From a virus: a stretch of DNA of 64,000 bases. The notes beneath the pieces were generated by a model. The model was not told where the DNA came from. It made no database searches and saw nothing but the letters and a program-made list of their open reading frames with translations. Position 1 is the first letter of the stretch, and every line of letters starts with the position of its first letter. Shown one piece after another: positions 625-55,453 of the stretch. The DNA is taken from positions 1-64,000 of the IMG/VR virus record IMGVR_UViG_3300044612_003672; one strand, written 5' to 3'. Made by a program: the position numbers and the translations under genes.

Positions 625-1539
625 ATGAGCGAGAAAAAGACTGATTCAGTAATTAAATTTTTTTCTGATGAAAATTCTTTCTCAAATCTAAAAATGAGGG
701 TAGCTATACTTGGAAAGATGCCTGATTTTGTTTCTTTTCAAAAAGGCATTCAAAAAATTGAAAAGATCAAGATGGAAAAGATAAATCCTGAAATGATGCC
801 TTGTTACAAATCTCCTCTTTTGACTAAGGAACAAGAGGTTCATTTATTCAGAAAGTTTAATTATCTCAAATATAAAGCCAATAGTCTTTATGGAATTGAA
901 AAAGAATCCAAATTCTTTGATGTAAAGAAGAAATTAGCGGATCACATCTATAAAAAAGCCATCCAAACCAGAAACTTGATTGCTGAAAGTAATTTCAGGC
1001 TGGCTACTCAAATCATGAAACACAAGAAGGGCAATCAAGACTCCAACACAGAATCCGTATTGAGCGATGCTTACTGGGATGTACTCAAAGCGGTAGAATA
1101 TTTCAACTGGACATTGGGACTCAGATTCAGCACTTATGCTACATGGGTAGTTAAGAAGAACTATTTTAGAGAAGCCAAGAACAAACAGACCAACTCGGAA
1201 AAGTTGACATTTCTTGATGATTCAAGAGCCGAAAATATTGAAGATCGAAATGGAATTAGTTCAGAAGAAAAAAATCAAGAAGCTAGGCAATATATGGTCA
1301 ATAAGCTTATAAACTTATTGATTAAAGAAAATATAGGAACAGATAGGGCTAGGCAAGCTTATGTGCTTGAAAACTACTTTGGTGTCAACGGAAGAAAAAA
1401 GCTCACCCTTGAGCAGATTAGCGCACAGATTGGCGTAACAAAAGAAAGAGTGCGTCAATTGAAGGAAAAAGGATTGCAGTGGATAAGGCAAAAGGTAAAC
1501 GATCTTAATCTTAACATGGAAGATGCTAGTTACTTTTGA
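625..1539 (+). CDS. sigma-70 family RNA polymerase sigma factor
   Basis: A 304-residue sigma-70-like protein expected to bind host RNA polymerase core and redirect it to phage promoters. Residues 66-80 resemble region 1.2; 116-190 form region 2, with the core-binding/-10 segment FSTYATWVVKKN at 168-179. Residues 260-291 form region 4 with a helix-turn-helix (TLEQISAQIGVTKERVRQLK at 261-280). Start is ATG after CGGAGG. Its TGA overlaps the TTG start of the next gene (TTGA), so the two are probably coupled. Two more sigma-like proteins lie at about 21.2-22.0 and 27.7-28.7 kb. Which promoter class it reads cannot be told from sequence. Confidence 0.85.
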   Translation: MSEKKTDSVIKFFSDENSFSNLKMRVAILGKMPDFVSFQKGIQKIEKIKMEKINPEMMPCYKSPLLTKEQEVHLFRKFNYLKYKANSLYGIEKESKFFDVKKKLADHIYKKAIQTRNLIAESNFRLATQIMKHKKGNQDSNTESVLSDAYWDVLKAVEYFNWTLGLRFSTYATWVVKKNYFREAKNKQTNSEKLTFLDDSRAENIEDRNGISSEEKNQEARQYMVNKLINLLIKENIGTDRARQAYVLENYFGVNGRKKLTLEQISAQIGVTKERVRQLKEKGLQWIRQKVNDLNLNMEDASYF

Positions 1540-2237
1540 AAAACAACATCCAAAAACTTGATGTTATAATTCTTTCTTATACGAAAGATTTGTGTTACTA
1601 TGGAATAACACAAAGATGCATATCATCTTTGTTTAGAAATAATATAAATTTATCATTGAATGTTATAGTTGTAGAAACAAATAGTAATTTAGAAAATGAA
1701 TATTTGTTTTATAACGGATGTAAGGTTGTTTTACCTTGCGAAGAATTTAATTACAATAAATTTATGAATATAGGACTTCAATATTGTAATTCAGAATTTG
1801 TTATGATGTGTAATAATGATTTGATATTTGGACACAATTCGGCAGAAAACCTTTTACAAACTATGATAAGCAATGACATGAAAAGCGCATGTCCTCTTGA
1901 GCCAAACTGGCATAAAACAAAACTGAGCGAAGTGGAATATCAGTCGCCAATTTTGGAAGGATATGAGGTTGAAAAACATATTGTTGGTTGGTGTATTTGC
2001 GCTGATAGAAAGATGTTGTGTGATAATCAAATTTTGGATGAAAAGTTTTCTTTTTGGTATCAAGATAATGATTATGCCAATACATTGAAGAAATTAAACA
2101 TAAAGCACTTTCTTGTAAAATCCAGTCATGTCTATCATGAATTTAGCATTTCGCACAAACTACTAGGAAACAGAGCGCACGAATTAACACATGGCTTAAA
2201 AAGCGTTTACGAAGAAAAGTGGCAAGGCAACTATTGA
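1536..2237 (+). CDS. GT2-like glycosyltransferase
   Basis: A 233-residue family-2-like (GT-A fold) glycosyltransferase. The N terminus has the usual first strand (LDVIILSYTKD) and a DxD-like metal/nucleotide-sugar site in NNDLIF near residue 94. A C-terminal acidic segment (WYQDNDYANTL) resembles the catalytic-base region of GT2 enzymes. The TTG start overlaps the stop of the sigma gene; no better start lies downstream before the conserved strand. The acceptor is unknown. It is one of at least nine glycosyltransferase-like genes in the window. Confidence 0.7.
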   Translation: MKNNIQKLDVIILSYTKDLCYYGITQRCISSLFRNNINLSLNVIVVETNSNLENEYLFYNGCKVVLPCEEFNYNKFMNIGLQYCNSEFVMMCNNDLIFGHNSAENLLQTMISNDMKSACPLEPNWHKTKLSEVEYQSPILEGYEVEKHIVGWCICADRKMLCDNQILDEKFSFWYQDNDYANTLKKLNIKHFLVKSSHVYHEFSISHKLLGNRAHELTHGLKSVYEEKWQGNY

Positions 2238-2300
2238 CAATTTATTTTGAAATGAGACAATGAGTTTCTAGTAGTTTTGTTGAATATGCAAGGAAGTAAT

Positions 2301-2855
2301 ATGTTACAAGATGGACTTTCTGCTTGTAAATCATGGAAGGGCAAAGCCCTTCTTGTTAACGATTTTTATCAGTCTAGGAGAATTGATAGTTCACTTGAGC
2401 CAATGTGGATTCATGGAGCATATGAAATTGTTAAAAATTATATTGATGATACTTTGCAAAAGGATCAAATTAAATTTTTCTATGATATCATTAGAAGTCA
2501 TGAGTTGCCTGATGGATTTGAAGTCCCATCCATGCCCAATGTTCCAAGTAGCCCAATTAGGATTATGCACGAAGGCTGGAAGATAGGTAGTCCAACTTGG
2601 ATATTTATGGGTCGTAACCAACCGGGAGCAGCAGTCCATGTTAATGGAGATTGGATCGCAGTAAAAAGAACAATTCCTGCCGAAATGTACAAATTTTTCG
2701 ATCCTCAACTCCCAGATTCTATTTGGATGGCTTACAGCACTAAAAATCAAATGGCGAGTATGAATTCTTCTCAAGATGATGGTGGAATAGGTCCGGCCAT
2801 GGATTTTGAAGACCTAGTTGAAGCAATTGAAAAGAAGATTGCACAGAAAGTTTGA
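2301..2855 (+). CDS. hypothetical protein
   Basis: A 184-residue protein I do not recognise. The frame is open from TTG 2277, but AAGGA at 2290-2294 is six bases before ATG 2301, so I chose that start. The protein is soluble, with aromatic/Pro-rich segments (WKIGSPTWIFMGRNQPGAA) and an acidic C terminus. A bidirectional terminator follows. Confidence 0.65.
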   Translation: MLQDGLSACKSWKGKALLVNDFYQSRRIDSSLEPMWIHGAYEIVKNYIDDTLQKDQIKFFYDIIRSHELPDGFEVPSMPNVPSSPIRIMHEGWKIGSPTWIFMGRNQPGAAVHVNGDWIAVKRTIPAEMYKFFDPQLPDSIWMAYSTKNQMASMNSSQDDGGIGPAMDFEDLVEAIEKKIAQKV

Positions 2856-2896
2856 TTTTAGAAATCATTAAAATTAGGATTATTCTTATCAAAATG

Positions 2897-2936
2897 ATAA
2901 GCCCCTTGTTGAAAAAAGGGGCTTATTTGAATTTTT
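2897..2936. terminator. bidirectional rho-independent terminator
   Basis: ATAAGCCCC (2897-2905) pairs with GGGGCTTAT (2918-2926), with T-rich tails on both sides. It separates the rightward gene ending at 2855 from the leftward DUF1559 gene ending at 2951 and can serve both. Confidence 0.8.
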
Positions 2937-2950
2937 ACTTATATGTAAGA

Positions 2951-4027
2951 TCAATCAAGGTTTGTAATAATACCATCTGTTGCGCCAACAATTGCCTTCA
3001 ATGTTAATGCGTTTGTGGTGTCTTTGATAGCTCTAACAGATCCGTCACACATGACTGCATTAGCAACGCCACTGTGGAAACTAAAAGGTTCATCGTTAGG
3101 ACCACAGTTGTTTACGCTCCAAGGACAGCTAGAAGGACCGCCAATTGGTGTTTGATTATTGTTAATTCTAGCCGTTTTATCAGAAGTGCTATTACTCGGA
3201 CCAGACAAGCCGTTTCCGCTCGCATCGGGGTCAGCCCACGCATAAACACGACGAGCAGTTGTTAGGCTTAAATCACCAATTACGGGATGACCGGGAGCAG
3301 ATACAGGTGAACTTCTTGCAGAACCAGCACCGAACATAGTCATTGTTGGATGCGCTCTACCAGCATCTTCAATTACAAGCAAAGTATTGCTTGTTCCATC
3401 TAAAATACTTGTAATAGTAGATCCTTGAGCAGTTAAAGGTCCATAATATTTTCCTTTATAGCTAGCAGAACCAGTTCCAGATACTCTTGAATTTGTGCCT
3501 TCATCAATATCGCTAACACAAGCAACCATATAGTCAATAACACCAAGATTTTCACCATTTGATCGAGCAGTAGATCCAAGTGGTGTAGAAGGACAAACAA
3601 ATGTCTTTACTTGTGTTTGAGAGGCAGTCCAACCGCTAGGATAAGCTGGATCATCATAATCTCTTCCTTTTGCCAATGCGTGTAAAAGCGTTGTGTTGTA
3701 TCCAGTCCAGTTTGTGTTCGTGTGATCAAACATTTTATATGTTGATTCTTGTTCGATGTAAGGAAGAATTTGCGTACACCAAGAATGAATCATATAAGTA
3801 GTAGTATTAGATCCAGTGCTATCAATTTGACCGGGATGAGGCAACTTGCTATATCCTGATTCAAATGCGTGAAATCCTAGACCAATTTGTTTCAAGTTGT
3901 TAGTGCAACTCATGCGATTAGCTGCTTCACGAACCTTTTGTACTGCTGGGACAAGAAGTCCGATAAGCACAGCAATGATGGCAATAACAACTAACAATTC
4001 AATCAATGTAAAACCCTTGCGCTTCAT
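2951..4027 (-). CDS. DUF1559 prepilin-like protein (Planctomycete type)
   Basis: 358 residues. The N terminus is a type IV prepilin leader and hydrophobic helix (KGFTLIELLVVIAIIAVLI), normally cleaved after G by a prepilin peptidase, followed by the family block QKVREAANRMSCTNNLKQIG and the C-terminal FHSGVANAVMCDGSVR signature of DUF1559. Planctomycete genomes carry dozens to hundreds of such genes; they are unusual in phages. Base composition is richer in GC than its neighbours, which suggests acquisition from a host. GGAGGAG precedes the ATG, and a CCGTCA/TGGCGG hairpin lies just upstream. Its role in a phage is unknown; it may be displayed on the host surface or modify pili. Confidence 0.9.
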   Translation of the reverse strand: MKRKGFTLIELLVVIAIIAVLIGLLVPAVQKVREAANRMSCTNNLKQIGLGFHAFESGYSKLPHPGQIDSTGSNTTTYMIHSWCTQILPYIEQESTYKMFDHTNTNWTGYNTTLLHALAKGRDYDDPAYPSGWTASQTQVKTFVCPSTPLGSTARSNGENLGVIDYMVACVSDIDEGTNSRVSGTGSASYKGKYYGPLTAQGSTITSILDGTSNTLLVIEDAGRAHPTMTMFGAGSARSSPVSAPGHPVIGDLSLTTARRVYAWADPDASGNGLSGPSNSTSDKTARINNNQTPIGGPSSCPWSVNNCGPNDEPFSFHSGVANAVMCDGSVRAIKDTTNALTLKAIVGATDGIITNLD

Positions 4028-4042
4028 TTTCTATTTCTCCTC

Positions 4043-4059
4043 CCGCCATATAATGACGG
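4043..4059 (-). promoter_or_regulatory. 5' UTR hairpin, CCGTCA/TGGCGG type
   Basis: On the minus strand CCGTCA-TTATA-TGGCGG forms six pairs, including one G-U, ending beside the GGAGGAG ribosome binding site of the DUF1559 gene. The same kind of hairpin recurs near 16.4, 22.55, 30.68 and 40.53 kb. Confidence 0.5.
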
Positions 4060-4241
4060 ATTTTTCCCAATAAAGTAACGATGATATAGTAGCCAATAAA
4101 AATATAGGATTAAAAGTGTTTTCGGAGAATAAAAATTGAAGATTTGATGAAGAAAATTTTTCCAAAATAACACTTTGTTTCAATTAAAATGTTTGCTAAA
4201 ATTAAAATGAAAGAAAAATATTGTCGATGAGGTGTTTTCAA

Positions 4242-4715
4242 ATGAAAGTGAAATTTTTCAAAAATATACTTCGCAATGGCGGTAAAGTTAGCTTTTTATT
4301 GCCAGAAAAAAAGTATTTTCCCGGTCATTTCCATGTGACTGAAGTCGCAAAAGTGACAAAAAATTGCATTGATTGCGGCGGAGAATCAAGGCAATTTAAT
4401 TTTGTAACATTGCAGCTATGGCTTGGAGATGATTTTGATCATAGGATTAATTCCCAAACCATGAAAAATATCATGGAAAATATTGAATCTTGTTGTGATG
4501 AATGGGACATAAAAGTTGAACTAGACAGCGGAACAACTGGTTTATACGATATAGAGGAGGTTATCCTTTACTCAAACCAAATTAACAACTCTAATAAAAC
4601 TGGTTACGACAACGAGAACATTACTTTTCAACTAGAAAGAACTTATACCAACTGTCTTGCTCCACAAAAGTGTGGCTTGAAAGACCAAAGAGAATGCAGC
4701 GATTCTTGCTTCTGA
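4242..4715 (+). CDS. DUF6428 family protein
   Basis: 157 residues. The order of motifs PGHFHVTEVAKV, IDCGGESRQ, LQLWLGDDFDHRI and a late TNCLAPQKCG with further Cys residues matches the DUF6428 family as I know it, seen in bacteria and often near arsenic-resistance genes; function unknown. The clustered Cys and His suggest metal binding. A TTG start seven codons earlier exists, but GAGGT seven bases before ATG 4242 decides the start. Confidence 0.7.
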   Translation: MKVKFFKNILRNGGKVSFLLPEKKYFPGHFHVTEVAKVTKNCIDCGGESRQFNFVTLQLWLGDDFDHRINSQTMKNIMENIESCCDEWDIKVELDSGTTGLYDIEEVILYSNQINNSNKTGYDNENITFQLERTYTNCLAPQKCGLKDQRECSDSCF

Positions 4716-4740
4716 AAAGAATACTGCTAGGGAGTGAAAA

Positions 4741-4998
4741 ATGCTTGATGCCATCATGCCAGTTGTGCAACCAGAAATTTGCTTTTCAATCGAAGATGAA
4801 TGCAAAGATTTTTCAGACGCTGATACAGTTAAAAGACTTTATAAAAAAGTCAAAGATGAAAATCCAATTGTTGCCATGTGGATAAAGAATTGGGCAAAGC
4901 AAACCAAGGATCGAATTGGTTCTATGGCATGCGCTTTGATTACCTATCGTCTCATTCAAAGCCAAATTGAAGCAGACATCATGAATAGCAACTACTAA
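4741..4998 (+). CDS. small hypothetical protein
   Basis: 85 residues, unrecognised. Good ribosome binding site (AGGGAG) before the ATG. Acidic N-terminal half, helical C-terminal half (MACALITYRLIQSQIEADIM). It follows the DUF6428 gene by 25 bases and is probably co-transcribed. Confidence 0.55.
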   Translation: MLDAIMPVVQPEICFSIEDECKDFSDADTVKRLYKKVKDENPIVAMWIKNWAKQTKDRIGSMACALITYRLIQSQIEADIMNSNY

Positions 4999-5068
4999 AA
5001 TTCTTGGTTATCGATACATTTTTGATCTGTTTATACATATCTAAATGTGTCAATAACCAAGGAGCATG

Positions 5069-5470
5069 ATGGAACAAGACTGCCGAACCTTGGGCGAAAA
5101 AGTGAGTGACGGAGTAGCCAAATTTGGCGGGTCTTGGTATTTTATCATAACTGGTTTTTTTGTTATTCTTTTTTGGGTTTTTTTCAACACAATACCTTTC
5201 TTTTACCATTATGATGGTTATCCTTTTATTTTACTCAATTTGTTACTTTCGCTTATAGCAGCTTTTCAAGCTCCATTCATTTTGATGGCGCAAAGAAGAG
5301 TTGAAGTCAAACAAGATGCCATTTACAGGGCCTTGTTTAGGGAAATAAAAGAACTAGTCGAAATTGATCTAAGTCTTGAAAATGAGGTATTGGAAACAAA
5401 CAAGAAAATGGAGCAAGAAATACAAGTTTTGAAAGAAATGCTCAAGCAACAACAAAAAGAGAGCCAATGA
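5069..5470 (+). CDS. DUF1003-like membrane protein
   Basis: 133 residues. GEKVSDGVAKFGGSWYFII, the second helix and YPFILLNLLLSLIAAFQAPF match the DUF1003 family of small bacterial inner-membrane proteins with two helices. A charged coiled-coil tail (about residues 85-130) follows. Two ATGs are adjacent; AAGGAG is one base from the first and four from the second, so I chose the second. Its last codons overlap the start of the HNH gene (ATGA). Confidence 0.8.
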   Translation: MEQDCRTLGEKVSDGVAKFGGSWYFIITGFFVILFWVFFNTIPFFYHYDGYPFILLNLLLSLIAAFQAPFILMAQRRVEVKQDAIYRALFREIKELVEIDLSLENEVLETNKKMEQEIQVLKEMLKQQQKESQ

Positions 5471-6366
5471 AATACCGTTGCACATCTACTATAATTTTTG
5501 ATTTTGAAACTGATTTGCCTTATGAGCAAGCAATCAACTTGGCCAAGAATTATCTCGATGAGATACCAATCAAAGAAGGCCTAGAAAACACCAGAACAGT
5601 TTTGCAACTCGATAAATTGAAATCAAAAGTAGAAAAAATTAAATTGGGCGAATTCAAACTTGATGAAGTATTTCCTTTTCTTACAGAAGAAAATTCTAAA
5701 AAACAATTCATAGTAGACGATAAAACTTATGATGTTAAGATGAATACTGACAGGTATCATCTTTTCAAAAACAATTTATCTTGTGTTTCCTGCGGACTAA
5801 CCGGAACCAGACTTTTCCTTGAATGTCATCCAGCAGATATGAAACCTCATTTTAATCTATATGGGGAAGAGGACAGAAAATTGGTTCTCTTTACCAAAGA
5901 TCATATTACCGCAAGGGCATTCGGAGGAGAAAACACATTAGAAAATTATCAAACCATGTGCAGCACATGCAATAGCTTGAAAGCTCACAGCAACTTATCG
6001 TTAGAATCAGTATCAAAACTGAGGAAAATTTACAACGATAATAGGAAAAAAATCACCAAGAAAAAATTGCATGTTCTGATTGAAGATGAAAGAAAAAAAC
6101 TTGAATTACCTTGGCCTCATTTGATATATGAGCAAAAAAACATCATACCAAAAAATGGAATACAAGTTAATTGTGACTTGGCTATTATTGAAGAGGATGC
6201 AAATTTGATCTGCATTCCAGAAAAACAATTGCCAGAATCAATATTGTCAAGAGGTTATATAAAGGATCAGTCTTATCTGGAAGAAATTGTTGAAATAAAC
6301 GGAATGATTATTTGTAAATTGACAGATGGAAGAATTGTTCGCTTGAATAAGAAATATATGAAATAA
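5467..6366 (+). CDS. HNH endonuclease
   Basis: 299 residues. An HNH nuclease domain occupies roughly residues 100-175: C106-x2-C109, the D145-H146 pair in KDHITARAFGG, N160 in LENYQ, and C165-x2-C168, which together form the metal-binding beta-beta-alpha fold and its zinc knuckle. The N-terminal 90 residues and C-terminal 120 are not recognised. It could be a free-standing homing nuclease or a phage DNA-processing enzyme. It overlaps the preceding gene by four bases. Confidence 0.8.
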   Translation: MKYRCTSTIIFDFETDLPYEQAINLAKNYLDEIPIKEGLENTRTVLQLDKLKSKVEKIKLGEFKLDEVFPFLTEENSKKQFIVDDKTYDVKMNTDRYHLFKNNLSCVSCGLTGTRLFLECHPADMKPHFNLYGEEDRKLVLFTKDHITARAFGGENTLENYQTMCSTCNSLKAHSNLSLESVSKLRKIYNDNRKKITKKKLHVLIEDERKKLELPWPHLIYEQKNIIPKNGIQVNCDLAIIEEDANLICIPEKQLPESILSRGYIKDQSYLEEIVEINGMIICKLTDGRIVRLNKKYMK

Positions 6367-19098: not shown

Positions 19099-19121
19099 GT
19101 CTTATTATAGTATGTTGACAT

Positions 19122-19278
19122 GCTAGATGACGGCGCAGGCATCGAGGCCGTAATCCTGCCTCGATTGTGTTGGTATGGTCATCTCAGGCAAGGAGCAGCC
19201 CTCAACAACGACCATCGTGTTAGATACAAGGGCCAATGGACAAAACCCATGATCTCAACCCGCACTCTGTCATCTAGC
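19122..19278. ncRNA. structured RNA candidate closed by a 10-bp stem
   Basis: GCTAGATGAC (19122-19131) pairs perfectly with GTCATCTAGC (19269-19278) and encloses 137 bases. Inside, ATCGAGGC (19141-19148) pairs with GCCTCGAT (19158-19165) and ATGGTC (19175-19180) with GACCAT (19210-19215). This is a multi-branch fold with higher GC than its surroundings and no good frame. The strand is undecided. It sits between the exostosin gene and the tRNA. Confidence 0.5.
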
Positions 19279-19318
19279 TTTTAAGAAGCTACTATGATTT
19301 GCTATTGGAATAAAGAAA

Positions 19319-19342
19319 AACCCCTTCATTTCTGAAGGGGTT
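19319..19342 (-). terminator. terminator after the tRNA
   Basis: On the minus strand CCCCTTCA-GAAA-TGAAGGGG is followed by TTTTTC, three bases after the tRNA 3' end. It ends the tRNA transcript. Confidence 0.8.
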
Positions 19343-19344
19343 TA

Positions 19345-19645
19345 TGGGATCGGTGGGGATTGCACCCACGACCTAAGCGTTATCATACCACTTCGGCTTT
19401 CGCCGCCATCTTGCGATGTTCGTGGTCTGGACTATGTCACAACCATGCCTTGCGGTTTAGGTCCACCCCCCATAGTCTCTACACACGCCAGACGATTTCT
19501 CGTCCGCTTGGCTCGGCGTTGCCACGGGATTGATCCCAGAGGTTTCACCGAATTCGGGGCGATCCGATAGGCAGTTTCCCAACCTATCGCTCATAAGGTC
19601 TGAAGACCATTCAAGCACTCCGCTCTCCTACTGAGCTACGATCCC
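19345..19645 (-). tRNA. tRNA-Ile (anticodon UAU) split by a group I intron
   Basis: Exons 19613-19645 and 19345-19383 fold into a full cloverleaf: acceptor GGGATCG/CGATCCC, D stem GCTC/GAGC, anticodon stem GAGTG/CGCTT, loop CU-UAU-AA, variable AGGTC, T stem GTGGG/CCCAC, and discriminator A. CCA is not encoded. Position 55 is G instead of the usual U. The 229-base insert lies between anticodon positions 34 and 35. UAU would read AUA codons, common in this AT-rich genome. An alternative cut giving GAU is less consistent with the splice-site rules. Confidence 0.85.
19384..19612 (-). other. group I intron (IC3-like) in the tRNA anticodon loop
   Basis: The 5' exon ends GCTT and pairs with intron GAGC (about 20 bases in), giving the required U-G at the splice site. 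The intron ends in G (GTATG before ATAA). Core elements are visible in order: GCCGAGCCAAGC (P), GTAGAGACTATGGGGGG (R), GACATAGTCC (S) and a 3' GGCGGCGAAAGCCGAAG stem. Order, insertion point and 3' end match the cyanobacterial tRNA-Leu intron. No reading frame inside, so it relies on self-splicing. Confidence 0.85.
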
Positions 19646-19722
19646 AATAGTCAATCCAGAGCAGATTGAATTGACTACAACCCTATTATTGTTAATTCAA
19701 AACAAAAGTCAAGCGAGATTAT

Positions 19723-19730
19723 ATATAAAT
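19723..19730 (+). promoter_or_regulatory. late-promoter-like box ATATAAAT
   Basis: TATATAAATC abuts the ATGATG start of the nucleotidyltransferase gene. There is no Shine-Dalgarno between them. Confidence 0.45.
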
Positions 19731-19731
19731 C

Positions 19732-20457
19732 ATGATGAATTTCAGGGCATATTTTGAAAAAGTCGAATTGACTCTCAAATACCACGATGATTTGAATCCA
19801 TCTTTTTGGAAGAATGGAATTCTTGACTCAGATGTTAGGGATCATTTGCTCGACATAGCTGAATTCTTTCGTGATTATGCTAATATTCCCAAAGATGCGG
19901 TCAAGGACATAATCTTCACTGGAGGCAACGCAAACTACAATTACACCGAGTTTTCCGATGTTGATGTTCATCTGATAATTGACAAGAAAAAGCTCAAGGT
20001 TTGCGATCCTGAAATCATGGATGATTATCTTAGTGATAAAAAAGCCTTAATAGCTCTTACTCACAATATCAAGATAAAAGGATTTCCTGTTGAGTTGTAT
20101 GCACAAGATGAGAAACAAGCCACATCATCTGACCAAGGAGTATTCAGTTTGAAAGACAATAAATGGATTAAAAAACCAGCCAAGAAACAAATTAATCTAA
20201 GAGATCCCTATCTTGTTAAAAAGATAAAAGATATTGAAAATCAAATTAAAAGATTCATTGACGGTAAATCAAAAGATGTTAAAGAGATGGATGACTATAA
20301 AGAAAAATTGAGAAAAATGCGAGGATCAGCAGTTCAGCATGGAGGAGAATTCAGTTTGGAAAATTTGGCATTCAAAGAATTGAGAAATAGAGGACTTCTT
20401 GAGAAGTTTTCTGACTATATTAAGGATGTCGAAGACAACAGGCTCACTCTTAAATAA
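19732..20457 (+). CDS. leader-bearing nucleotidyltransferase-fold protein
   Basis: 241 residues. Leader MMNFRAYFEKVE, then KYHDDLNPSFW and a nucleotidyltransferase signature: GGNANYNYTEFSDVDVHLII (about 64-83), with the two metal Asp in DVD and a third acid possibly in FPVELYAQD. Related proteins occur in T4-like phages. It could transfer a nucleotide to tRNA, protein or a small molecule; the target cannot be read from sequence. Two adjacent ATGs are possible starts. Confidence 0.75.
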   Translation: MMNFRAYFEKVELTLKYHDDLNPSFWKNGILDSDVRDHLLDIAEFFRDYANIPKDAVKDIIFTGGNANYNYTEFSDVDVHLIIDKKKLKVCDPEIMDDYLSDKKALIALTHNIKIKGFPVELYAQDEKQATSSDQGVFSLKDNKWIKKPAKKQINLRDPYLVKKIKDIENQIKRFIDGKSKDVKEMDDYKEKLRKMRGSAVQHGGEFSLENLAFKELRNRGLLEKFSDYIKDVEDNRLTLK

Positions 20458-26747: not shown

Positions 26748-27521
26748 TTACATGGTGATCAGCTTTTTGTCAAAAAACTCTTCAATAATCCAATCGCAGT
26801 CCATAATGTGAAATTCATGGCTTCTTTCCTTTTTTGTTTTAATTATTTCATCTGACCAAGATTCTAAGTCCAGATGAGCAAATGTACGAATCACGCCGTG
26901 AGAAGATTCGAGGTATTGAATCAGTTTACTTTTTTCCAAAGAAGAAATTAATTTCCAGTCTAGAATCGGTATGTGAAAATGTTTACAGATCATTATGAGC
27001 AATTCTTGATAAAGGCAAAAACAAAAGACAACCTTCTCATCCATTTTGGTTGGAAGCTTAGAAAATAGTTCTAACTTTTTAACAATCTTCTTGGGCAAAG
27101 AGTCTTTGTTCAAAATAAGTGATTCGTATATTGAGAGATACCAAGATGTGACAGAAGTTCTTCTTTTAGCTGGCAGAGAATCACGAACATCTCTTGTTAA
27201 AGCAAAACAATTAAATTCCTTCACAAAAAATGGTATCTTCATGCATGAATAGTTTTCTTTCGTAAAATTATATTCTTCTTTTTCCCATGTAAGCTTGAAT
27301 ATTTTTTCGCATATATCTTGATTCATATCTGCTATTTTTTGATAACATGTAATATATTCGCATCCAAATCCTTTTGCTAATATTTCGCAGTATTTGTGGT
27401 TATTGGCTGGGTTGAAAAATTCTCGTGAATAGTTGATTCCTTTCTGCGAATCACATAAGGTAGTGGCGAGCCAATCTGATCCGCAGTTTGGGCTCGATAT
27501 TAAAAGCATGGGTTTTTTCAT
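26748..27521 (-). CDS. sulfotransferase-like P-loop protein
   Basis: 257 residues. LLISSPNCGSDWLATTL resembles the 5'-phosphosulfate loop and CFALTRDVRDSLPAKR the 3'-phosphate motif of PAPS-dependent sulfotransferases. It would transfer sulfate to a sugar or other acceptor. The loop is not fully canonical, so binding of PAPS is likely but not certain. Its promoter region lies back to back with the leader of the third sigma gene. Confidence 0.6.
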   Translation of the reverse strand: MKKPMLLISSPNCGSDWLATTLCDSQKGINYSREFFNPANNHKYCEILAKGFGCEYITCYQKIADMNQDICEKIFKLTWEKEEYNFTKENYSCMKIPFFVKEFNCFALTRDVRDSLPAKRRTSVTSWYLSIYESLILNKDSLPKKIVKKLELFSKLPTKMDEKVVFCFCLYQELLIMICKHFHIPILDWKLISSLEKSKLIQYLESSHGVIRTFAHLDLESWSDEIIKTKKERSHEFHIMDCDWIIEEFFDKKLITM

Positions 27522-27569
27522 GGTTTTTGTCCTTTCGTCATATGGAATCCCATCAAATTATGGTGAAGG

Positions 27570-27649
27570 GAAACTGCTTCGGATTTCCGAGAAGCAAAGC
27601 CGATAATATGTTTGGTCGTCAGTCGCCGCCATCAGAAGCGTTGACTGAC
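27570..27649 (+). promoter_or_regulatory. repeated structured RNA element, copy 3, in a sigma-gene leader
   Basis: The segment AAACTGCTTCGG, a short loop, TCCGAGAAGCAAAGCCGATA recurs almost unchanged twice near 30.54 and 30.62 kb. CTTCGG pairs with CCGAG. A 7-pair hairpin GTCAGTC/GACTGAC (27618-27624/27643-27649) follows before the start codon. Confidence 0.5.
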
Positions 27650-27673
27650 TTTAAGCTTAATGGAGTAAGGCTC

Positions 27674-28669
27674 ATGAACTTCAAGTCTTATAAGTATCGC
27701 AAGCTTAATGGTTTTGAAGAGAAGTTTGTTTGCAGCGTATTAAGTGATATCAATTCAATCATCAAAAAGTGGCATGGCATTTTCCCTAACATCAAGTTCG
27801 TCAAGGTAAAACAGCATCTTTTCGATTCTCCTTCTGAATTACCTGTTGCCAATGATGCACACAGGGCTGAATTGGCGGCTGATGTTGAAATAATTGCTAA
27901 TCTCCGACAGCCTCACCAGCAGTTGGGAAATAGGACTGTTGATAATGCTGTTCTTGAAGGATACTGTGGTATAGTATATCACTTTGCCAGTAGTTGGTTC
28001 AAATCTGATATCAATGGTATCACCAAGAATGACATCATGCAAGAGCTATACCTGAAGATCTGGGAAATCATGTACAGGTGGAATTCTGATCGTGGATCTT
28101 TGTCAACATTTATTTGGAAGAGTGTGCAGAATCGAATCTATACGGTTCTCAACACTCAAGGTCGCCCATTGGGTCATCTTCGCACAACCGGATTGTTGTT
28201 AATGGCCAAGTTTGACAAATTAAGGAAGGCAATGCCTAATTCTGACACATCTGAGATTATTGATTCTATGGACCTGACTGCCAAAAAGAAGCAGCATCTT
28301 TTGGACATTCTTGCATCAGTTAAACTCAATTCGCAAATGCAGAATTCTGGTCAGAATTCTGATTCTTATGGCGATGACTATTCAGTTCTTGGCAATATTC
28401 CCAAGAAAACCGAGAACGATGAATTGACACAAAAAATTTATGTCAAAGACATACTTGACAAAAGTAATTTGACACTCAATGAAAGGAAACTTATTGATGC
28501 TTCCATGGAACCTTATCATGGTTGGCAAACTGATATGGCCAGTAAAATCGTTTCCGAAAAAACAGGCAAGAAATACACTAAAATGAGAATCACGCAAATT
28601 CTGCAAAAAGCCAGAGAGAAGGTTGCTAATACAATTGAGCAGCAAAGAGCAGTTGAGAATGGAGTTTGA
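27674..28669 (+). CDS. sigma-70 family sigma factor
   Basis: 331 residues. Region 2 is visible at about 115-185: NDIMQELYLKIWEIMYRWNS then GSLSTFIWKSVQNRIY. Region 4 is C-terminal: LNERKLIDASMEPYHGW then KMRITQILQKAREKV. The frame is open for 186 bases further upstream, but AAGG before ATG 27674 and the structured leader there favour this start. It is the third sigma-like gene of the window. Confidence 0.75.
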   Translation: MNFKSYKYRKLNGFEEKFVCSVLSDINSIIKKWHGIFPNIKFVKVKQHLFDSPSELPVANDAHRAELAADVEIIANLRQPHQQLGNRTVDNAVLEGYCGIVYHFASSWFKSDINGITKNDIMQELYLKIWEIMYRWNSDRGSLSTFIWKSVQNRIYTVLNTQGRPLGHLRTTGLLLMAKFDKLRKAMPNSDTSEIIDSMDLTAKKKQHLLDILASVKLNSQMQNSGQNSDSYGDDYSVLGNIPKKTENDELTQKIYVKDILDKSNLTLNERKLIDASMEPYHGWQTDMASKIVSEKTGKKYTKMRITQILQKAREKVANTIEQQRAVENGV

Positions 28670-51605: not shown

Positions 51606-52349
51606 ATGGAAAAACCTAAATGGACGATAGGAACTGTGAATTGGAAATCAATTGAATTCATTGAATATCAATTGAAATATTTTCATGAATACAATCAAGA
51701 CTTTGAATTTATAGTTTGTGATAATGAAAGCAATGTTGAAACTCCTAAATTCAAAGATCTCAAAGAGAAATATCCAAAATTAAAATTGGTGAATTCGCAA
51801 TCGAGGAATTGTGCATGGAGCGCACACGGAATTGGTCTCAATCAATGCATGAAAATCGCAGAAGGAAAATACATCTTGTTAATGGACCCAGACTTTTTCT
51901 GGATGAAGAAAGATATTCTTTCATTTTTTGAAAATTATTTCAAAATGGGATATCACGCTATTGGAACAGAATATGCCGGAACTGACTTTCCAATGCCTTG
52001 GGGAGCAGCTTATATTACTGATGAAATTAATGATTTAGATTTAATCGTAAAAACATCTATTTGTGAAAAATGTAACATTTTGGTTTATGATAAAATGTAT
52101 GACACCGGATGGCAACTCAGAATACGATTAAGCAATAAACCACATCATGCATTCAAACAAGTTTTGAATCAAATTCCAAATCTAGGAAGATACAACACTA
52201 ATTGGTCGCAAACATATATTCATGATAACAAAGCTATAGCTCACCATTTCAAAAGCGGGAGTCAAATAGAAAAAACATATAATGAACAACAAGTTAAAGA
52301 AATAAGAGAAAAATATACAGATTGGATGTGGAATCAATTATATGATTAA
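51606..52349 (+). CDS. tandem glycosyltransferase paralogue 1 of 5
   Basis: 247 residues, GT2-like. WTIGTVNWKSIEFIEYQLKY opens the fold; FEFIVCDNES is the second strand; LLMDPDFFWMKKDIL has the metal-binding D94-P-D96. A Cys pair (CEKC) and DTGWQLRIRL lie in the acceptor half. The first ~70 bases after the start are identical to paralogue 2, a sign of recent duplication. Likely adds a sugar to a shared glycan. Confidence 0.8.
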   Translation: MEKPKWTIGTVNWKSIEFIEYQLKYFHEYNQDFEFIVCDNESNVETPKFKDLKEKYPKLKLVNSQSRNCAWSAHGIGLNQCMKIAEGKYILLMDPDFFWMKKDILSFFENYFKMGYHAIGTEYAGTDFPMPWGAAYITDEINDLDLIVKTSICEKCNILVYDKMYDTGWQLRIRLSNKPHHAFKQVLNQIPNLGRYNTNWSQTYIHDNKAIAHHFKSGSQIEKTYNEQQVKEIREKYTDWMWNQLYD

Positions 52350-52378
52350 TTTTAATTTATATTTTACTAAATTAGTTC

Positions 52379-53125
52379 ATGTCGAACAAATGGACGATAG
52401 GAACTGTGAATTGGAAATCAATTGAATTCATTGAATATCAATTGAAATATTTTCATGAATTTTCTGATGACTTTGAATTCATAGTTTGCGATAATGAAAG
52501 TAGTGTTGAAACTCCTAAATTCAAAGATCTTAAAGAGAAACATCCAAAATTAAAATTGATAAATCAACATTGGAAAAGTGATTCATGGGCCGCACACGGA
52601 ATTGGTCTCAATCAATGCATGAAAATCGCAGAAGGAAAATACATCTTGTTAATGGACCCAGACTTTTTCTGGATAAAGAAAGATATACTTTCATTTTTTG
52701 AACACTATTTCGATCAAGGCTACCATGCAATTGGAGCAAATTACATGCATATGAGAACAAGTTTTCCAATGATTTGGGCAGGAGCTTATATCACTGATGA
52801 AATTAGAGATTTAGATTTGATGACAAGAAATCCTCGATGCGAATCTTGCAAAAATTGTATTTATGATAGAGATTACGATACTGGTTGGCAAATCAAGATA
52901 AGACTTGGTAATAAACCTCACTATTCATTTGAACAAATTCAAAACCAAGTTCCAAATTTCGGCAAATATAATAATAGAGACTCAGAAACATATGTTTATG
53001 ATACAAAAGTTATAGCTCACCACTTAAAAAGTGGAAGTCAAATAGAGGAAGATTATACCCAAGAAAAAATCAAAGAAATAAGAGAAAGATACACAGAATG
53101 GATGTGGAGTCAATTATACGATTGA
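52379..53125 (+). CDS. tandem glycosyltransferase paralogue 2 of 5
   Basis: 248 residues. Same layout as its neighbours with an intact DPDFFW site, CESCKNC and DTGWQIKIRL. The segment after the first strand differs (HWKSDSWAAHG). CTAAATTAG lies just before the ATG, a degraded late box. Confidence 0.8.
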   Translation: MSNKWTIGTVNWKSIEFIEYQLKYFHEFSDDFEFIVCDNESSVETPKFKDLKEKHPKLKLINQHWKSDSWAAHGIGLNQCMKIAEGKYILLMDPDFFWIKKDILSFFEHYFDQGYHAIGANYMHMRTSFPMIWAGAYITDEIRDLDLMTRNPRCESCKNCIYDRDYDTGWQIKIRLGNKPHYSFEQIQNQVPNFGKYNNRDSETYVYDTKVIAHHLKSGSQIEEDYTQEKIKEIRERYTEWMWSQLYD

Positions 53126-53171
53126 TTTTAATTTTCACTGCAATAAATGTCGAAAACAAGATTGAGGATTT

Positions 53172-53918
53172 ATGGATAAATTAAAATGGACGGTAGGAAT
53201 AGTAAACTCAGATTCTTTAGAATTTATTGAACATCAATTGAAATATTTTCACGAATTTTGTAGTGATTTTGAGTTTATTGTTTATGATAAAGATAACATT
53301 AAAAAAAATACTTTTTTAGATGATCTTAGCAAAAAATATAAAAACACAAGAATAATTCAGACTCCTAGTTTATCACATGGAATGCATTCTTATGGACTTG
53401 GATTGAACGCTTGTGTTCAAATGGCTAAAGGAAAATATATCTTGTTAATGAACCCAGACTTTTTCTGGATGAAGAAAGATATACTTTCATTTTTTGAACA
53501 TTATTTCGATCAAGGATATCATGCAATAGGAACAGAATATTGGAGTCATTCTTTTCCAATGCCTTGGGGAGCCTCTTACATCACAGATGAGATTAGAGAT
53601 TTAGATCTAAGAGCAAAAGCCCATCCTTGCGATAAATGTCACACTTGGGCCTCTGATCGTGATCACGATACTGGTTTTCAAATAAAAATAAGACTAAAAA
53701 ATAAACCATTCTTTTTCTTCAGATCTTCTAAAAATAATCAAATTCCTGATTTGGGAAAATCAAACACCATATACGCACAAACATTCGTCTATGACGAAAA
53801 AAACATTGCACATAATTTGAATGGTGGTTGCCAACAAAAAGAAGGACAAAATAAAGATGAACTGATTGCGATTAAAAAGAAGTACGCAGAATGGATGTGG
53901 AGTCAATTATATGATTAA
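53172..53918 (+). CDS. tandem glycosyltransferase paralogue 3 of 5, DxD changed to NPD
   Basis: 248 residues. The metal site reads LLMNPDFFWMKKDIL: the first Asp is Asn. CDKCHTW, DTGFQIKIRL. Closest to paralogue 5, which has the same change. It may be inactive, use the second Asp only, or have changed donor. GAGG precedes the ATG. Confidence 0.8.
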   Translation: MDKLKWTVGIVNSDSLEFIEHQLKYFHEFCSDFEFIVYDKDNIKKNTFLDDLSKKYKNTRIIQTPSLSHGMHSYGLGLNACVQMAKGKYILLMNPDFFWMKKDILSFFEHYFDQGYHAIGTEYWSHSFPMPWGASYITDEIRDLDLRAKAHPCDKCHTWASDRDHDTGFQIKIRLKNKPFFFFRSSKNNQIPDLGKSNTIYAQTFVYDEKNIAHNLNGGCQQKEGQNKDELIAIKKKYAEWMWSQLYD

Positions 53919-53947
53919 TTTTAATTTATATTTTACTAAATTAATTT

Positions 53948-54700
53948 ATGTCGAAAAAATGGACAATAGCTTTAGTTAACTGGAATTCTTTTGAATTCAT
54001 TGAATATCATGCTAAATTTTTCCATTCATTTTGTGATGATTTTGAGTTTTTAGTTTGTGATAATACAAGTCCTTATCAGTCAGAAGAATTAGATGCTATT
54101 GCTGAAAAGTATGAAAAAGTAAAAATTATTTATCCTGATGGTAAAAACTTATCTCACGGAGGTGGAATCAATAATTGTTTAGGTGAGGCATCAGGTAAAT
54201 ATATTTTGATTATGGACCCAGATTTTTTCTGGATGAAGAAGTCTATCTTAAAAATTTTTGAACATTATTTTGATCAGGGTTATCATGCGATTGGAACGGA
54301 ATTTTGGGATCATCCATTTCCGATGCCTTGGGGAGCAGCATACTACACTGATGAAATTCGTGATTTAGATTGTACTGCCAGAGTTGAAAAATATTGTGAT
54401 AAATGTAATAACAAGATTTTGGACAAGTGGTCTGATACTGGCTGGGAGATAAGAGTTAGGTTGCATAATCAGCCTCATTTTGGTTTTAGAAGAGTTATGT
54501 CTACATGTGTTCCTTATATGGGAAATCATTTTTATGCATTTAGGCCGATCAGCTTTGTATATGATGGTAATTTTATTGCTCATCATTTGATGAGGGGAGA
54601 ATACAAGGACACAGATTGGCATAAGGATTTTGTTAATGATGAGATGATTTCTGCGAGAAAAAATTACATTGAATATTTCTGGAACAATTTACAAGATTGA
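53948..54700 (+). CDS. tandem glycosyltransferase paralogue 4 of 5
   Basis: 250 residues, the most divergent copy. LIMDPDFFWMKKSIL keeps the DxD; CDKCNNK and DTGWEIRVRL follow. The intergenic segment before it nearly repeats that before paralogue 2 (ATTTTAATTTATATTTTACT). Confidence 0.8.
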   Translation: MSKKWTIALVNWNSFEFIEYHAKFFHSFCDDFEFLVCDNTSPYQSEELDAIAEKYEKVKIIYPDGKNLSHGGGINNCLGEASGKYILIMDPDFFWMKKSILKIFEHYFDQGYHAIGTEFWDHPFPMPWGAAYYTDEIRDLDCTARVEKYCDKCNNKILDKWSDTGWEIRVRLHNQPHFGFRRVMSTCVPYMGNHFYAFRPISFVYDGNFIAHHLMRGEYKDTDWHKDFVNDEMISARKNYIEYFWNNLQD

Positions 54701-54706
54701 GGATTT

Positions 54707-55453
54707 ATGGCTAGGTTAAAATGGACGATAGGCACGACAAATTGGGATTCTTTGGAATTCATACAATATCATGCAAAATTTTTCCATGAATTTTGTAGTG
54801 ATTTTGAATTTATTGTTTATGACAACGAGAACATTCAAGGAACTGCTTCTTTCGATGATATTCGCAAAAAATATAATAACACAAAAATATTTCAGACTCC
54901 TAGTGTATCGCCGGGATGTCATGGACATGGTTTGGGATTGAATGCATGTGTTCAAATGGCTAAAGGCAAATACATCTTGCTAATGAACCCAGACTTTTTT
55001 TGGATGAAGAAAGATATATTGTCATTTTTTGAAAGTTATTTCAAGATGGGATATCATGCTATTGGCACAGAGTATTGGGGGAATACTTTCCCGATGCCTT
55101 GGGGTGCAGCTTATATTACTGATGAAATTAAAGATTTAGATTTGAGGGCTAAATCACATCCTTGCGATAAATGTAACAATTGGGTTTATGATCGTGATTA
55201 TGACACTGGTTTTCAATTAAGAATAAGACTGAAGAATAAGCCATTCTTTTTCTTTAGAGAGTCTCAAAAAAGTTCAATTCCTGATTTGGGAAAATTAAAT
55301 GACATGTATTCGCAAACATTTGTGTATGATGGGCGTAACATTGCACATCATTTGAAGGGAGGTAGTCAACCAAAAGAAGGCCAGAATAGAGATGAACTGA
55401 TTGCGATTAAAAAGAAGTACGCAGAATGGATGTGGAGTCAATTATATGATTGA
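54707..55453 (+). CDS. tandem glycosyltransferase paralogue 5 of 5, DxD changed to NPD
   Basis: 248 residues. LLMNPDFFWMKKDIL again has Asn for the first Asp. GHGLGLNACVQMAKGKYI and the C terminus KKKYAEWMWSQLYD match paralogue 3. Only six bases separate it from paralogue 4. Confidence 0.8.
   Translation: MARLKWTIGTTNWDSLEFIQYHAKFFHEFCSDFEFIVYDNENIQGTASFDDIRKKYNNTKIFQTPSVSPGCHGHGLGLNACVQMAKGKYILLMNPDFFWMKKDILSFFESYFKMGYHAIGTEYWGNTFPMPWGAAYITDEIKDLDLRAKSHPCDKCNNWVYDRDYDTGFQLRIRLKNKPFFFFRESQKSSIPDLGKLNDMYSQTFVYDGRNIAHHLKGGSQPKEGQNRDELIAIKKKYAEWMWSQLYD

Follow-up and report, generated by a model that had tools for sequence, protein, structure and literature searches.

A group I intron of the bacterial tRNA-intron family in a phage tRNA-Ile(UAU) gene and its relatives in other phage tRNA genes

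The window analyzed here covers the first 64,000 bases (1-64000) of a viral record of 71,123 bases and has a GC content of 35%. The record originates from an environmental metagenome and represents a phage that carries an intron-split tRNA-Ile(UAU) gene on the minus strand (19645-19345; Table 1). The interruption lies between anticodon bases 34 (U) and 35 (A), and the spliced anticodon is UAU. The 5' exon reads GGGATCGTAGCTCAGTAGGAGAGCGGAGTGCTT, and the 3' exon reads ATAACGCTTAGG...CGATCCCA. When joined, the exons display a cloverleaf, the 7-nt loop CUUAUAA, and A73; the CCA end is absent from the gene. ARAGORN identified the joined exons as tRNA-Ile(tat), and none of 20,000 shuffles of them was called any tRNA. 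Run over the window, either without introns or with introns of up to 400 nt, the program missed the gene and reported no tRNA. The tRNA-Ile(UAU) is the sole tRNA detected in the 71-kb record, and AUA accounts for 31% of the Ile codons of the phage and for 2.4% of all its codons. The GC content of the tRNA/intron locus is 55% compared to 35% for the phage. A near-identical locus is present on contig L001 of the viral collection.

The terminator directly 3' of the tRNA and the promoter-like sites upstream of it make the locus look like a single-gene unit. The terminator hairpin region (19309-19379, minus strand) additionally gave sub-threshold, chance-like Rfam matches, including one to the Pseudomonas rnk leader. 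Directly 3' of the terminator, 164 nt (19118-19281, minus strand) are predicted to form a single branched fold, whose closing stem consists of 10 perfect base pairs (GCUAGAUGAC/GUCAUCUAGC). None of 200 shuffles was equally stable (z = -5.2), and the fold is kept in L001; it matched no Rfam family, nor was similar DNA found in phages, and the element is possibly a novel structured RNA. Elsewhere in the window, five ORFs of 247-250 amino acids lie in a row on the plus strand (51606-55453), the first of which matches glycosyltransferase family 2. Two sigma-factor-like genes are located at 625-1539 and 27488-28669 (both plus strand), and the only phage match of the latter is in a 595-kb uncultured phage in which a tRNA-Leu intron is present as well.

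Table 1 Features of the tRNA-Ile(UAU) locus, listed in the direction of transcription.
Feature	Position	Strand	Description
Second candidate promoter CTGAAA-16-TATAAT	19718-19745	-	consensus scan only
Possible promoter TTGACT-16-AATAAT	19685-19712	-	10/12 match; consensus scan only
5' exon of tRNA-Ile(UAU)	19613-19645	-	acceptor, D arm, 5' anticodon stem, C32, U33, U34
Group I intron	19384-19612	-	229 nt, no ORF, terminal G; R1 118.6 bits; RF00028 full length, 22.7 bits
P1-loop hairpin GGUC-UUCA-GACC	19597-19608	-	other hairpin sequence in L118
UUAU directly 5' of guide	19593-19596	-	P10 with 3' exon AUAA (19383-19380)
Internal guide GAGCG	19588-19592	-	P1 with exon UGCUU (19617-19613), U.G at 5' splice site
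P2 CGAUAGG/CCUAUCG	19565-19589	-	kept in L118
Catalytic core	19464-19561	-	P3 5' strand 19561-19556 to P3 3' strand 19469-19464; encloses P4, P5, P6, P6a
P4	19551-19546/19518-19513	-	inside core
P6a	19504-19500/19495-19491	-	inside core
P7 GACUA/UAGUC	19430-19477	-	strands 19477-19473 and 19434-19430; pseudoknot with P3; P8 between strands
P9 ACCAC/GUGGU with hairpins P9.1 and P9.2	19387-19426	-	kept in L118
3' exon of tRNA-Ile(UAU)	19345-19383	-	A35, U36, A37, A38, 3' anticodon stem, variable loop, T arm with G55, acceptor, A73
Intrinsic terminator	19318-19343	-	directly after tRNA; 11 pairs, then TTCTTTATTC

In order to classify the intron, we used a covariance model (R1) built from 24 other phage introns, from which the window intron and its counterpart on contig L118 were left out. 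R1 aligned to the window intron over all of its model positions (1-212 of 212) with 118.6 bits (E = 1.3e-29); at E <= 0.001, it matched nothing else in the 71-kb record. The covariance search proposed in an earlier note on this DNA, made from the sequence alone, was thus successful with R1 and fell short with the general group I model: RF00028 (Intron_gpI) matched 19404-19613 (minus strand) over the whole model with 22.7 bits (E = 0.0018), below its gathering cut-off of 50. A default Rfam search misses the intron because its score is below this curated cut-off. The Rfam model is weak on relatives as well, with sub-cut-off scores of 36.8 bits for L007 and 45 bits for L006.

The earlier note had staked its reading on the folding of the P3-P9 core, and here the full P1-P10 architecture was found, with P1, P2, P3, P4, P6, P6a, P7, P8, P9, two P9 hairpins, and P10. 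The hallmarks of group I introns, namely the U.G pair at the 5' splice site in P1, the terminal G, and P10, are present, and the fold of the 301-nt precursor beats 100 of 100 shuffles (z = -3.3). Since ARAGORN misplaces the junctions of related introns, boundaries were re-derived with a U at position -1 and a terminal G. P1 and P10 of the window intron were assigned by hand, because its longer P1 loop causes the R1 alignment to mis-set the 5' exon. At the level of sequence and predicted structure, 19612-19384 is confirmed as a group I intron inside tRNA-Ile(UAU). This bears out the earlier note in its description of a phage tRNA-Ile(UAU) with a group I intron of exactly 229 nt, and its placement of the insertion between positions 34 and 35 agrees to the base with the exon/intron boundaries. 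No homing endonuclease is encoded in the 229-nt intron, which lacks an ORF, and the sole HNH gene identified in the window (5467-6366) is 13 kb away.

The same tRNA is present on the other contig, L118, which represents a second phage lineage, with exons that are 94% identical to those of the window (68 of 72 bases) and an intron that is 77% identical. Every named helix is kept between the two, with nine two-sided compensatory changes, and the P1 loop of L118 also contains a hairpin, which differs in sequence (GGGUU/AACCC). In an alignment of 77 introns, 97.2% of the pair cells are paired compared to 30-40% with the partner slid, and P7 is paired in all cells. Exon base +1 pairs with guide base -1 in 45 of 47 introns, which was matched by none of 20,000 shuffles when relatedness is ignored; for exon +2 and guide -2 the count is 41 of 47, which two of 20,000 shuffles equalled, again with relatedness ignored. 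In each of the five Ile introns whose guide could be read, A or G lies opposite U36, and in 34 of 38 Leu introns U lies opposite A36; the corresponding P10 guide bases are UAU or UGU in the Ile introns and UUU or AUU in most Leu introns. The P10 bases beside the guide covary with the anticodon of each tRNA across the family, as predicted by repeated moves between tRNA genes followed by re-adaptation.

The family is widespread. The earlier note had described group I introns in tRNA genes as rare in phages, a view that does not hold: an exact 18-base core motif occurs in at least 120 stretches of IMG/VR, most of which are tRNA genes. R1 detected 142 introns in the loci listed together with a few named phage and plasmid records. 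Joining of their exons in silico yielded a tRNA from 86, mostly Leu(UAA) interrupted at 34/35. The other isotypes obtained in this way were CAU at 33/34, Asn(GUU) at 35/36, Arg(UCU) at both 33/34 and 34/35, Lys(UUU), Thr(UGU), Tyr(GUA), and Ile(UAU); a probable Glu(UUC) intron was read manually (L063, 1170-1393). By these predictions, phage tRNA genes of about nine kinds carry such introns, which number well over a hundred. IMG/VR contigs possibly include some cellular DNA, and isolated phage records are free of it. Among named phages, Gordonia phage Daredevil has an intron in tRNA-Lys(UUU) at junction 34/35 and Agrobacterium phage Atu_ph07 one in tRNA-Leu, both unannotated in the records. The tRNA-Leu intron of the 595-kb uncultured phage is likewise unannotated and contains an HNH-like gene.

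Strict pattern scans of viral sequences for a similar tRNA-Ile intron gave no match because the patterns were too strict. A looser pattern retrieved L063, L209, L210, and L211; the first three have Ile(UAU) introns at 34/35 whose flanking exons each join in silico to tRNA-Ile(UAU), and L211 provides a fitting 3' half only. tRNA-Ile(UAU) is common in phages, with 32 intron-less ARAGORN calls among the loci listed. Intron-less genes of this kind that accompany relatives of the neighbouring gene were considered as an empty site and rejected, since the sequences are too different.

Several of these loci show further features. L063 harbours 17 intact tRNAs and four with group I introns (Ile-UAU, Leu-UAA, Tyr-GUA, and probably Glu-UUC) at 1170-5740 (minus strand), with HNH/GIY-YIG-like genes between its tRNAs. 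In Daredevil (L002, 1185-1690), the tRNA-Lys intron is near an integrase gene, and an exon-like sequence, ACGGACTTTTAATCCGC, just upstream of it is perhaps an attP core matching the host tRNA-Lys. The conjugative enterobacterial IncL/M plasmid pCTX-M3 (L007, 1330-1556) carries a related intron in tRNA-Leu(UAA) near the resistance gene aac(3)-IId, an arrangement found on conjugative enterobacterial plasmids, and a stretch of the window intron is matched at 80-90% in 1,258 plasmid records. In seven contigs (L009, L017, L069, L070, L096, L108, and L113), an intron of the family splits a conserved protein gene (3' exon AAAGGCACTTGTACAAGGTGA...), which indicates that the family crosses between tRNA and protein genes too.

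Among the closest counterparts found are the tRNA-Leu(UAA) introns of Bradyrhizobium ISRA435 and pCTX-M3. They also match R1 and share with the window intron the 34/35 junction, the architecture, the tree clade, the motifs GTGTAGAGACT and AGTCCAGACCAC, and the 3' end TGGTANG, but their host tRNA is Leu with the 3' exon AAAA instead of Ile with AUAA. Like the window intron, the Daredevil intron resides in a phage tRNA at 34/35, and it is among the nearest by tree, differing in its Lys isotype and its GC-rich actinophage host. The intron of cyanobacterial and plastid tRNA-Leu(UAA) is inserted at 34/35 as well and is similar in its general core; its P9 strands differ from those of the window intron, and its host gene is tRNA-Leu(UAA) rather than tRNA-Ile(UAU). 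A cyanobacterial 3' motif had no match in viral contigs. The designation "cyanobacterial-type" in the earlier note goes further than these data support: the closest introns found are those of proteobacterial plasmids and Daredevil, in a tree that contains no cyanobacterial intron.

Bacterial tRNA introns were already known in Leu(UAA) and fMet in cyanobacteria, and in Ile2(CAU) and others in proteobacteria. tRNA-Ile2(CAU) needs lysidine, and its intron is located after position 36, compared to 34/35 in the window. Small group I introns in this tRNA for AUA have been described in Azoarcus, Acidovorax, and Burkholderia (PMC8450103; PMC3984707), where the anticodon is CAU as opposed to UAU; tRNA-Ile(UAU) itself is known from few bacterial genera only (PMC8450103). 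In reviews, group I introns of bacterial tRNAs are assigned to cyanobacteria and to a small number of proteobacteria (PMC4033280). The introns of T4 td, the SPO1 polymerase gene, Twort, and Cluster J are phage group I ribozymes like the one described here, but they interrupt protein genes, often together with homing endonucleases, whereas the window intron sits in a tRNA gene and encodes none. According to a 2014 review, every phage group I intron known at that time interrupted a protein gene, although phage tRNAs are numerous (PMC3984707). We found no report of phage tRNA introns in the open-access literature searched. What is known is the ribozyme family; new are the Ile-UAU host tRNA and a setting that had been described as empty.

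In order to trace the history of the family, we calculated a tree of the 77 introns from which exon columns were left out. The isotype labels require 21 changes on this tree compared to nine if each isotype formed one clade. The window and L118 introns group with the Daredevil Lys intron and with the Leu introns of Bradyrhizobium and IncL/M plasmids. GC-rich rows cluster on the tree, in part perhaps as an effect of composition. Those of L209 and L210 are next to Leu introns of other phages, and the Ile intron of L063 is next to Leu introns, one of them from L063 itself. A single Ile clade was rejected (p-AU 0.007), but a clade of the window, L118, L209, and L210 was not (p = 0.18). As the four-member clade was not rejected, the tree firmly supports at least two independent Ile lineages and suggests three or more.

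Overall, we consider it very likely that this phage tRNA-Ile(UAU) gene works and forms its own short transcription unit, that a group I ribozyme at 34/35, a member of the family of bacterial tRNA introns, splices to give an AUA-reading tRNA, and that the intron belongs to a large mobile pool and has adapted its guides. Included in this assessment is that small phage-tRNA introns have moved repeatedly between isotypes, most often among U34 tRNAs. From the sequence, we infer both splicing of the intron and use of the tRNA in translation. The transcript would fold such that the end of the 5' exon, UGCUU, pairs with the guide GAGCG to form P1, and an external guanosine bound at P7 would attack after U34. 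In the next step, P10 would hold the 3' exon (AUAA against UUAU) while the freed U34 attacks the junction behind the last base of the intron, a G. Ligation of the exons would yield a tRNA with the anticodon UAU; after addition of CCA by host enzymes, this tRNA would read AUA codons of the AT-rich phage. After entry of an intron into a new tRNA gene, the P1 and P10 guide bases would adapt to the exons. The spread itself may have occurred by recombination or reverse splicing, and endonucleases acting in trans are another candidate route.

Alternatively, the tRNA and its intron might have been captured whole from a bacterial host, as opposed to the intron entering a phage tRNA. The locus GC of 55%, far above that of the phage, and the close relatives on proteobacterial plasmids would fit such an origin. 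However, structured RNA genes are GC-rich in any case, and several unrelated phage tRNA-Ile(UAU) sequences bear such an intron. When 84,980 bacterial and archaeal genomes were scanned with two strict patterns, no tRNA-Ile carrying the window intron or its T arm was found either, and we regard whole capture as rather unlikely.

Use of the tRNA in translation could be questioned on the basis of its T-loop (TGCAATC), in which G55 replaces the canonical U55 both in the window and in L118. Together with the missing CCA and the position of the gene as the lone tRNA of the 71-kb record, this might point to an evolving relic or a tRNA-like decoy with a real intron. Against this, the exons of L118 are retained while its intron has drifted with compensations and G55 is common to both, which argues that the tRNA form is maintained by selection. 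G55 also occurs in other phage tRNAs (13 of the 461 phage-locus tRNAs scored), and we therefore rank a non-translational tRNA as improbable.

As a further alternative, the intron might be kept because it benefits the phage: with the anticodon split until splicing, the precursor could escape anticodon nucleases of the host, or maturation could be coupled to the state of the cell. The insertions lie inside the anticodon loop, four intron-bearing tRNAs occur on L063, the window phage encodes an RNA ligase, and anticodon-loop changes in phage tRNAs have been proposed to evade tRNA-targeting defences (PMC10264068). Yet bacterial tRNA introns occupy the anticodon loop without any phage, and the tRNA is exposed once spliced; we consider retention for such a benefit unlikely. 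Chance resemblance or a decayed intron, to which the Rfam score below cut-off might be taken to point, is practically untenable in view of the independent model (E ~1e-29), the complete set of helices, the splice-site rules, and the compensatory changes.

The above results have consequences for the annotation of phage genomes. Detection of group I introns is stated to lie outside the design of tRNAscan-SE 2.0 (PMC8450103), and ARAGORN without its intron option misses these genes, so that phage tRNA counts, analyses of codon compensation, and intron histories are incomplete. The earlier note had proposed a route by which such introns move among bacteria; related introns in phages and conjugative plasmids fit this idea, whereas direction and mechanism go beyond the evidence. 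Tentatively, phage tRNA genes might be a main natural reservoir and exchange ground of small group I tRNA introns, which would jump between isotypes at the anticodon loop with a preference for U34 and without an encoded endonuclease and would retune their P1 and P10 to the anticodon at hand; this pool may have seeded the tRNA introns of bacteria and plasmids. The intron set makes an old question testable, namely whether reverse splicing can carry a group I intron from one gene into a different one, as the P1 and P10 guide bases represent a record of the target and tRNA-Ile(UAU) exists in phages both with and without the intron.
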